DNA of 64,000 bases, taken from contig JABDNT010000046.1 in the NCBI GenBank assembly GCA_013043685.1, positions 92,439 to 156,438 on the forward strand, given 5' to 3'. Under the pieces are notes generated by a model that saw nothing but the letters and a program-made list of their open reading frames with translations, did no database searches and was not told the origin of the DNA. Position numbers and translations under genes: made by a program. The DNA comes from Flavobacteriaceae bacterium. GTDB taxonomy: Bacteria > Bacteroidota > Bacteroidia > Flavobacteriales > Flavobacteriaceae. Positions 13,052 through 20,395 of the stretch are shown here, one piece after another; position 1 is the stretch's first letter, and each line of letters begins with the position of its first letter.

Positions 13052-13087
13052 GCACAAAAAAACCTCCCGTTATTTCAGCGGGAGGTT
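13052..13087 (-). terminator. Rho-independent terminator downstream of the 32 aa ORF
   Basis: AACCTCCCG (13061-13069)/CGGGAGGTT (13079-13087) stem, preceded on + by AAAAAA (poly-T on minus strand). Confidence 0.8.
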
Positions 13088-13115
13088 TTATGGATTCCGG
13101 TTGGTGTGGAGAAGA

Positions 13116-13214
13116 CTATCTGTGGATTGCATAACTACTGGCTTTCGCAAATTCAGCTAATTTTACATTCCACTTACTAAGTTTCTCACTCCAAAGTTGT
13201 TTCCAATTTTTCAT
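13116..13214 (-). CDS. Small basic protein, 32 aa, ASSYAIHR family (copy A)
   Basis: MKNWKQLWSEKLSKWNVKLAEFAKASSYAIHR*; shares its C-terminal half with 18742..18855. Not in ORF track because of length. Confidence 0.78.
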   Translation of the reverse strand: MKNWKQLWSEKLSKWNVKLAEFAKASSYAIHR

Positions 13215-13442
13215 AACTCGAATTTTAGGGTTATGCCATCAGAAATCCAACAAGCGTGCCATTAGTTGAAGCAATTCTCTAACTGTTTGAAATTGAATAG
13301 AATAAAACTATTTTGAACATATATCCTAAACTATATTATGTAAGAATATGATGCCGACCTATTCCTCTCAATTCACTCCATTTAATTTCATTTTAACAGC
13401 CGGATTTTGTATCTTTTTAAGAACAATTCAAATACTCATAAC

Positions 13443-17012: not shown

Positions 17013-18665
17013 ATGAAAAAAATCATCTTACTCTTCATCAGTTTCCTGATGTTACAGGCAACTGCACAATCGACTTTTACCGCCCAACAATGGCAGGACG
17101 ACCTCAAATTTCTTCAACATACGGTTCATAAGGACTATCCATTTCTCTTCAAAAAAGTTACTTCGGAAGCCTTTGATGCGGCTGTCGAGAAACTCCACAA
17201 ACAGATTCCAAATCTGGCGCAACATGAGATCAGTATAGGATTTGCCCGGATAATAGGAATGTTCAAATACGGACATACCCGTATGGGATGGCATGGCAAT
17301 CCCACAGCTTTAAGACAATTCCCTGTTAATCTCTATCGTTTCTCAGACGGAGTCTATGTTCAGGGAGTCCATAAGGACTACTCTCAAGCTTTAGGAGCTA
17401 AGGTCCTCAGGGTAGGGAATATGTCTGTTGAAGAAGCATTAAAAGCTGTGTATCCAGTGGTACCTGTAGAAAATGAGCAATTCTTTAAAGCATACGGATT
17501 CCTTTATCTTATGAGTCCCGAAGTATTACATGCTCAGGGGGTTGTTTCGGAATTATCAGACCAGCTTGAGCTGACCCTTGAAAAGGAAGGAAAGACCTTT
17601 AAGACCACATTTGAAGTACTTCCTGCAGGGAAGATGCCACCCAGAACCTACGGATATATACAAACTTCAGATGAGTGGCTTGATGTGCGTGCCTCAGGGG
17701 AAACACCACTATATCTAAAACAACTTGACAAAATATACTACTACGAATACCTGCCGGATTCTAAAACCGTATACGTTCGGCAGAGCCAGATTCAGGATGA
17801 TCCAACTGAACCGATCCCTGCATTTTATACCCGGGTGTTCGATTTCATCGAAAAGAATGATGTGCAACGCCTTGTACTGGATGTGCGGTTGAACGGGGGA
17901 GGGAACAATTACAAGAACAAAGCGGTGGTGACCAGGATCATAGAATCTAAGAAGATAAACCAGGTTGGAAATTTTGTTGTTGTTCTGGGCCGGAGAACAT
18001 TTTCGGCATGTCAGAACCTTGTGAATGAACTGGACAATTACACCAATGCTGTATTTGTTGGGGAGCCCACAGGTGAGAATATCAATTTTTACGGTGATAA
18101 TAATGAGGTGATCCTTCCCAACACTAAAACCCCGGTTTATCTCTCCTTTGCCTGGTGGCAGGACAAACCACAATGGGAAAACGACGATTGGCTGGCCCCG
18201 CATATAGCCATCGATATGAGTTTTGAAGAATATAAAACCAATAAGGATCCGGTATTGGAAGCTGCGCTCAGCTTTGACGATTCTGATTTTGTACTCGATC
18301 CAATGCAGTATATGACGGAGCTATATACCTCGGGACAACAGGAAAAACTGGCTACCGAAGTACCTAAAATGGTAAGAGACCCCAGGTATAAGTTTTTTAA
18401 CTTCGAAGGAGAACTGAATGAAGCAGGGTATAATTCTATACAACGTGGTGACCCTCAAACGGCTATTGCTATTTTCACCTTTATAACTCAATTATTCCCG
18501 GAATCGGCAAATGCATGGGATAGTTTAGCCGAAGGTTATTTAGAGGCTGGAGACAAGGAAAAGGCGACAGAATACTATCAAAAAGCGCTGAAGATGGATC
18601 CTGATGGACCCACTGGTAAGAATGCGAGCGGTATGTTGCGGAAAATTGAAGTCGGCTCTCATTAA
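17013..18665 (+). CDS. Exported S41-like peptidase with C-terminal TPR
   Basis: LVLDVRLNGGGNNYKNKAVV, RRTFSACQNLVNELDNYTNAVFVGEPTG; C-terminal ANAWDSLAEGYLEAGDKEKATEYYQKALKMDP. Confidence 0.82.
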   Translation: MKKIILLFISFLMLQATAQSTFTAQQWQDDLKFLQHTVHKDYPFLFKKVTSEAFDAAVEKLHKQIPNLAQHEISIGFARIIGMFKYGHTRMGWHGNPTALRQFPVNLYRFSDGVYVQGVHKDYSQALGAKVLRVGNMSVEEALKAVYPVVPVENEQFFKAYGFLYLMSPEVLHAQGVVSELSDQLELTLEKEGKTFKTTFEVLPAGKMPPRTYGYIQTSDEWLDVRASGETPLYLKQLDKIYYYEYLPDSKTVYVRQSQIQDDPTEPIPAFYTRVFDFIEKNDVQRLVLDVRLNGGGNNYKNKAVVTRIIESKKINQVGNFVVVLGRRTFSACQNLVNELDNYTNAVFVGEPTGENINFYGDNNEVILPNTKTPVYLSFAWWQDKPQWENDDWLAPHIAIDMSFEEYKTNKDPVLEAALSFDDSDFVLDPMQYMTELYTSGQQEKLATEVPKMVRDPRYKFFNFEGELNEAGYNSIQRGDPQTAIAIFTFITQLFPESANAWDSLAEGYLEAGDKEKATEYYQKALKMDPDGPTGKNASGMLRKIEVGSH

Positions 18666-18684: not shown

Positions 18685-18724
18685 TAAAAAATAACCCCTC
18701 ATGGAAGTGAGGGGTTTTTCTTTT
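18685..18724. terminator. Bidirectional Rho-independent terminator
   Basis: AACCCCTCA (18693-18701)/TGAGGGGTT (18708-18716) flanked by A run and T run; serves 17013..18665 (+) and 18742..18855 (-). Confidence 0.85.
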
Positions 18725-18741: not shown

Positions 18742-18855
18742 CTATCTGTGAATGGCATAGCTACTGGCTCTTGCGTATACGGCCAATTTGGCTTTCCAAA
18801 CTTTTAGTTTTTCATCCCAATTGTTAAAGAATTTTTTGCGTAGTTTTTTCATCAT
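18742..18855 (-). CDS. Small basic protein, 37 aa, ASSYAIHR family (copy B)
   Basis: MMKKLRKKFFNNWDEKLKVWKAKLAVYARASSYAIHR*; paralog of 13116..13214. Not in ORF track because of length. Confidence 0.78.
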   Translation of the reverse strand: MMKKLRKKFFNNWDEKLKVWKAKLAVYARASSYAIHR

Positions 18856-19291
18856 ATATCATTGTTTTATGGGTTATTAAATCATTTAATGCGTCCTTAA
18901 ACAATAGATAAGAGGAAAGTGTAATTTATAATCGAAAATCGATTAAAAGAGGTAAGATAAGGGGGTATAGTATAAATGTAAGAAATTTCTGGTTATTACA
19001 ATTACACTTTTCAAACTATTCGATGAAATGTATAGAAAATCAGATGTTCATTAGTGGCTAGTTGTAATTTATATCATGGCAAACACGCTTATCTACCATG
19101 TTCAAAATCAACACCCTCATTATCAATATTTTAAATACTAATTATCGTCAATATCAGTGTTTCAGGCTGATTTATGTTCACACGCTTTTACATGTTCTGT
19201 CCTCAACTTATCTTTCAAATTCTTAAATGAAAAAATAAAAAACTGTGATTTTTTCAGTACCATGTTAACTAATAGAGTAGAACATCATTGA

Positions 19292-19774
19292 ATGAGCAAG
19301 GAAGAAAGCTTTACAAGGATTATTAGAGACAACGAAGGGATCATTTACAAGATCACGAGGATCTATACCAGTACTGTTGAAGATCAGAACGATCTCTACC
19401 AGGAAATAGTTTTTCAGCTTTGGAAAAGTTTCGACTCATTTCGAGGAGATGCCAAGGTAAGTACCTGGATGTATCGCATCGCATTAAATACGGCCCTGTT
19501 TCATTCCAAAAGAGCTAAAAAGAGAGGGTATAATGTGAGCCTGGACGGAGTTGTGCTTCAGCATGAAAATTACGATCCGGTGTTTGAAGAACGTCTAAAG
19601 GTAGTCTACGAACAGATCAGAAGCTTAAATGATATTGAAAAGGGAATCATACTCTTATTCCTGGAAGGAAAGAAACACGAAGAGATTGCTTCGATTACCG
19701 GATTTAGCAAATCTAATATCGGTACTCGAATAGGAAGGATAAAAGAAAAGCTTAGAAAACAAATAATTAAATAA
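19292..19774 (+). CDS. ECF-type RNA polymerase sigma factor
   Basis: DQNDLYQEIVFQLWKSFDSFRGDAKVSTWMYRIALNTAL; KHEEIASITGFSKSNIGTRIGRIKEKLR. Confidence 0.92.
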   Translation: MSKEESFTRIIRDNEGIIYKITRIYTSTVEDQNDLYQEIVFQLWKSFDSFRGDAKVSTWMYRIALNTALFHSKRAKKRGYNVSLDGVVLQHENYDPVFEERLKVVYEQIRSLNDIEKGIILLFLEGKKHEEIASITGFSKSNIGTRIGRIKEKLRKQIIK

Positions 19775-19780
19775 TTGACT

Positions 19781-20395
19781 ATGGAACTTGAAGAAATGCA
19801 AACACTTTGGACTCAGATGAGTAGTCAGATTGAAAGTCAGAAAAAACTAACAAACAAACTTATTATGGAAATGACTCAGCAAAAATTCAGGAATCGTTTT
19901 TACACTTTGTCCATATACGAAACGATCGGAGCGGTGATCTGTTTTGTCTTTGCGTTTTTTATACTGCTCAACCTGGATAAAATGAACAGCTGGTATCTTA
20001 TGGCCTGCAGCCTGGTAACTTTATTGTTCTTAATTATACTGCCGGTACTGTCCCTCCGTGCTATTCACGGCATGAGGACTCTGGATTTGTCGAATCGTAG
20101 TTATAAGGAAACGATGGTGGATTTCACCCGTAAAAGAAAGAATATGTTATTATTTCAAAGGATTGCAGTTATGTTAAGTGTAGTAATGATGTGGGTGTCT
20201 ATCCCAGTATTTTCAATGATTATGAATAACAAAGATTTCTTTGCTATGAAACACAATCCCTGGTTATGGGTATTTACTGCAGCTGTGACGGTTGGAGTGG
20301 TCCTATTTTCAAGATATGGCTACAGGGGGTATCGGAAGGTGACTGCCTCGGCAGAAAATGTCTTGAAGGATCTGGAAGATCAGACAGGTAATTAA
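19781..20395 (+). CDS. Membrane protein, possible regulator of the adjacent ECF sigma factor
   Basis: Follows the sigma gene by a few bases; soluble N-terminus then paired TM segments. Confidence 0.65.
   Translation: MELEEMQTLWTQMSSQIESQKKLTNKLIMEMTQQKFRNRFYTLSIYETIGAVICFVFAFFILLNLDKMNSWYLMACSLVTLLFLIILPVLSLRAIHGMRTLDLSNRSYKETMVDFTRKRKNMLLFQRIAVMLSVVMMWVSIPVFSMIMNNKDFFAMKHNPWLWVFTAAVTVGVVLFSRYGYRGYRKVTASAENVLKDLEDQTGN

Follow-up and report, generated by a model that had tools for sequence, protein, structure and literature searches.

Copy B and its paralog in the host genome

Does the short open reading frame at positions 18742–18855 (minus strand) of the window encode a genuine protein, and what could so small a product do in the cell? 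The window, i.e., the whole 64,000-nt stretch of DNA analyzed, is part of contig 18 of a 3.0-Mb Flavobacteriaceae genome that is 97.7% complete. Translation of the frame, MMKKLRKKFFNNWDEKLKVWKAKLAVYARASSYAIHR (stop included), agrees letter for letter with the first-pass annotation and gives 37 aa followed by TAG, and its assignment as a micro-protein gene (copy B) draws on translation, homologs, and dN/dS. About 25 nt past the stop codon we located the stem (18693–18716) of a bidirectional intrinsic terminator with T runs on both strands, which had been placed before at 18685–18724 and is common to copy B and the convergent S41-like gene (17013–18665, plus strand). This neighbor, a peptidase with Peptidase_S41 and TPR matches, belongs to the context and lies outside the copy B unit. 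At 19292–20395 a gene for a sigma-70 family factor (regions 2 and 4) is divergent from copy B and is followed by that of a predicted membrane protein; the same pair adjoins copy B also in genome G006 (locus L068) and is absent from this place in most others.

The paralog, copy A, was found at 13116–13214 (minus strand). It encodes a 32-aa product, MKNWKQLWSEKLSKWNVKLAEFAKASSYAIHR (stop included), and has its own intrinsic terminator at about 13060–13088 (minus strand). The starts of the two genes are 5,641 bp apart, in line with the earlier description of two copies about 5.6 kb from each other, in one orientation and with the same gene-terminator layout. That description went on to predict a dispersed multicopy family with more copies elsewhere in the genome, which our searches contradict. 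A protein search of the whole 3.0-Mb genome and a degenerate C-terminal pattern (exactly 2 matches, 0 when reversed) returned no copies beyond A and B. With only two copies in a genome of such completeness, the genes do not constitute a dispersed multicopy family here.

A micro-protein family of marine flavobacteria

In total, 58 distinct genes of the ASSYAIHR family were gathered, all from Flavobacteriaceae, with products of 32–40 residues that end in a nearly invariant ASSYAIHR; by the assigned start, 41 of the 58 are exactly 32 codons long. Rather than two isolated occurrences, or frames shifted in relatives, we found clear homologs in all six congeners and in many other genera, so the proposal of a genuine small-protein family with a common tail stands. 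Profile searches of 400 genomes of the family Flavobacteriaceae gave confident members in about 20 genera and weaker members in additional genera, while a scan of named genomes yielded 40 loci, in Aureitalea, Aureisphaera, Altibacter, Ulvibacter, Gilvibacter, Dokdonia, Pukyongia, and many Flavobacteriaceae MAGs. Outside Flavobacteriaceae no clear match was obtained in 395 genomes of the class (profile A3) or 398 genomes of the order (profile A4); the weak class-level matches L090, L091, L092, and L094 (E 0.01–0.05) turned out to be unrelated frames. A phage or mobile origin was also considered and set aside, as no relative was found among viral contigs.

Searches of Pfam, NCBIfam, and PADLOC gave no family match to the micro-protein at E ≤ 0.001, which bears out its earlier description as unannotated. 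Neither a meaningful relative among solved structures nor a paper containing SSYAIHR or dealing with such genes was found. Copies A and B belong to a real, strongly conserved micro-protein family of marine flavobacteria, usually present as a neighboring pair whose members end in the same eight residues, and thereby add to the Flavobacteriaceae a family missed by the libraries used (Pfam, NCBIfam, PADLOC).

Coding selection and predicted structure

Among congeneric orthologs dN/dS was 0.10 for copy A and 0.12 for copy B. In the last 8 codons, compared over all members, synonymous differences amounted to 0.84 per site and nonsynonymous ones to 0.04, with changes almost all at the third position; across genera the synonymous sites are near saturation and the protein tail is fixed. 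As read from the sequence, the ORF at 18742–18855 is a protein-coding gene. The start region bears an A-rich tract at −13 to −10 (A at −12/−11) and a T at −1, far above what is seen for other ORFs of the same loci, and a terminator lies at most 120 nt downstream in 44 of 57 family genes vs. 36 of 500 random positions. Of the leaders and terminators that the first-pass annotation had proposed to compare between copies, the gene-terminator layout proved to be common to both, whereas the leaders mostly did not: the promoters are different and only the A-rich translation start region is in common.

The consensus of the family is MKxLxxxWxEKLKxWNxKLxEYAKASSYAIHR, with L at −14, A at −8, and SYA at −6 to −4 invariant in the collected set; as members were gathered with search patterns containing the tail, its invariance is partly a selection effect. 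A wider profile recovered the tails GASYALQH, AASYAINH, ACSYSIHR, and GASYALKH from more distant genera, indicating that the deep constraint is looser than ASSYAIHR and reads roughly (S/A/C/G)SY(A/S)(I/L)x(H/R/K). The hydrophobic positions −29, −25, −21, −18, −14, and −11 (L/W/L/W/L/Y) follow a 4-4-3-4-3 spacing, the helix moment has a mean z of 1.7, and the product is basic, with a mean net charge of +5. AlphaFold2 predicted a single helix for residues 3–36 (pLDDT 79, pTM 0.36), although a helix prediction for 37 residues is weak evidence. No transmembrane stretch was detected, the maximal 17-residue Kyte-Doolittle mean being below 1.6 in 58 of 58 members, and none of the 58 contains a double glycine.

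Order and age of the paralog pair

In the two-copy stretches fetched, copy B comes first and copy A second on the same strand in 15 out of 15 cases, which represent about 11 genomes of several genera, some of them counted twice. The B-to-A distance ranges from 369 bp to 14 kb and the intervening genes differ; this arrangement is consistent with an old tandem duplication that may later have been split by other genes. Residue −9 follows the promoter class (described below), with 16 K and 0 R in class A vs. 4 K and 16 R in class B (Fisher p = 7e-7, a nominal value for related sequences), and this linkage indicates that the paralogs are old. The neighboring S41 and M28 peptidases were considered as functional partners and rejected, because the neighbors vary between genera while the A/B pair persists.

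The two copies are preceded by different promoters

Upstream of copy A, 47 nt before its ATG, we identified a sigma54-type −24/−12 site, TGGCACGCTTGTTGGA (13246–13261, minus strand). The published consensus for such sites is TGGCAC-N5-7-TTGCT (PMC12316311). The corresponding class A motif, TGGCA(C/T)-N5-TTG, occurs 47–129 nt before the start in 16 distinct genes, and a sigma54-type site is carried by the divergent member L085 too. The motif is specific: 23 matches were counted in 1.8 Mb of strands, with 22 ORFs carrying it at most 260 nt upstream. TGGCACG-N4-TTG has five matches in the host genome, and the form TGGCACGCTTGTTG is seen only at the site before copy A. RpoN is encoded in this genome. 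Several class A members share, besides the promoter, stretches of the 5′ UTR (TTAAACC..CTAG, AGTCAAAGAATnAAAA; upstream regions of L105, L107, and L036), possibly an RNA element.

No sigma54-type −24/−12 site is present before copy B. This gene has instead a class B promoter element, AGAAATTTCTTACATTTA (18973–18990, minus strand), whose core lies 130 nt before the ATG and which is conserved in 20 homologs. The element private to this class is AGAAATTTCKTACATTTA; in the form AGAAATTTC(G/T)TACATTTA or a close variant it is found 87–185 nt before the start in 20 genes, with a specificity equal to that of the class A motif. Its core, AAWTTTCKTACATTT, has a single occurrence in the genome, at copy B. 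Further upstream lie a proximal half-site, CATCGAATAG (19016–19025, minus strand), and a distal half-site, CATCTGATTT (19037–19046, minus strand), of one 21-bp direct repeat. A CGA-centered half-site is fixed at −36/−37 from the core in 12 of the 20 class B genes, and in an aligned leave-one-out matrix of this class the best second half-site falls 21 bp further upstream (lag −21), as it does at copy B. From the 21-bp geometry we infer direct repeats of the LytTR type. About 20 members carry neither a class A nor a class B promoter.

A link to LytTR signaling was seen directly in one distant genus only. In genome G351 and its congener G977, 3 and 4 divergent tandem copies, respectively, stand directly behind genes for a His_kinase and a LytTR response regulator (L198 5115–5837 in G351; L196 3500–4487 in G977), and each genome has 1 further single copy elsewhere. 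Array copies are preceded by TACGGAAA...TTGCGGWTWTCC direct repeats spaced 22 bp apart, with three such sites in the L196 array. The window genome encodes six LytTR genes, none of which adjoins the A/B pair. For marine Flavobacteriaceae, copy A is a candidate target of RpoN and copy B one of a LytTR regulator. An operon-like arrangement, unlike that of other members, was noted at L178 1660–1788, where the gene of the divergent member MKTINAIIKELKKVIEFIKEMPASASYAIHR is followed, after about 30 nt and on the same strand, by a gene for 406 aa.

Possible function

The genomic leads to function are unusually strong: the two paralogs have distinct conserved promoters and keep their order, most products have one length, and the tail is constant. 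The reading that we hold most likely, at an even chance, is that the product is a signal-induced micro-protein acting in trans, whose helix positions the C-terminal tail as a docking tag for a conserved partner. Each copy is a stand-alone unit, in which a separate, regulated promoter and a strong flavobacterial start region for translation precede an ORF of 32–40 codons, usually followed by a terminator of its own. A sigma54 activator would turn on copy A and a LytTR-type response regulator copy B, and two different signals would thereby deliver one tail. The helix may be a variable handle, used for self-pairing or at a membrane surface, while the C-terminal octapeptide with its free carboxylate could dock into a pocket that is conserved in its cytosolic partner, as suggested purely by where conservation is placed. 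Such a partner, e.g., a protease/chaperone or a regulator, would be adapted or inhibited in the way known for anti-adaptor or kinase-modulating micro-proteins. The mixed orientation of the downstream gene among homologs, together with the convergent gene that copy B faces, was counted in favor of action in trans.

The E. coli Ira proteins, MgrB, and SafA are stress-induced micro-proteins with anti-adaptor or kinase-modulating roles, and MgrB and SafA span the membrane. The ASSYAIHR products resemble them in being tiny, stand-alone, and presumably signal-induced, with paralogs under different regulators. Unlike MgrB and SafA, they are without a transmembrane segment, and unlike all three their conservation is concentrated in the C-terminal octapeptide; no sequence relation between them is known. 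Predicted sigma54 control in Flavobacteriia is enriched for chaperones and proteases (PMC12316311), so a search for the partner could sensibly begin with proteostasis, though this is a lead only.

Another reading, which we hold to be rather unlikely, sees in the family a peptide by which a flavobacterial signaling circuit gives its output or feeds back on itself. In this circuit a LytTR two-component system and sigma54 would drive one paralog each, and the constant tail would be a novel type of peptide signal, acting inside the cell (or released), with a common receptor.

We see little chance that the units make a regulatory small RNA (for copy A a sigma54-driven, Qrr-like, terminated transcript of about 200 nt) in which the short ORF is incidental or additional. 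Sigma54-dependent small RNAs, Qrr among others, are short, intrinsically terminated, and present in multiple copies; copy A is similar in its sigma54-type promoter, its short, intrinsically terminated transcript unit, and the existence of more than one copy, and pieces of the 5′ UTR are conserved in part of class A. Codon-level selection (dN/dS about 0.1, third-position changes) is what disfavors a non-coding function: unlike Qrr, the family is selected at the protein level, with near-saturated synonymous sites around a fixed tail. Moreover, UTR length and sequence vary widely, and Rfam gave no family match above the gathering score. A dual-function RNA is conceivable nonetheless.

A role as the secreted signal of a histidine kinase-LytTR circuit, in which the conserved C-terminus would be the mature pheromone, would fit the 3–4-copy arrays behind the His_kinase and LytTR pair and the 22-bp direct repeats before their copies. 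In this the distant-genus copies recall the Gram-positive com/blp/agr loci, which are LytTR-linked peptide genes; next to the pair in the window there is no such system. Yet this function, too, is improbable given the lack of a double-glycine leader in the 58 members and a tail that stays constant across genera instead of diverging strain by strain. In addition, no exporter was seen in the G351 and G977 array gene tables, and copy A has a sigma54-type promoter.

The basic amphipathic helix could also suggest a membrane-active peptide, either type I toxin-like or antimicrobial. We consider this quite unlikely, as conservation peaks in the polar tail rather than in the helix, the sequence is too weakly hydrophobic for a toxin that spans the membrane, neither an immunity gene nor a conserved neighbor was found outside close relatives, and PADLOC gave no match.

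Finally, conservation runs right up to the stop codon and ends there, and a length of 32 aa comes near what fits into the ribosome exit tunnel. A leader peptide whose last residues arrest the ribosome at the stop codon to control a downstream gene in cis is nevertheless highly improbable, because a terminator separates the ORF from whatever gene lies downstream and neighbor orientation is mixed, with the next gene oppositely oriented for copy B and many homologs and no constant co-directional gene downstream.

Apart from the sites described above, a second sigma54-like site, TGGCACGGCTATTGG, was noted at L139 1501 (G000:C17:22291). It lies 82 nt before a gene whose product, about 200 aa long, is predicted to be secreted; this gene may be a further RpoN target in the genome.
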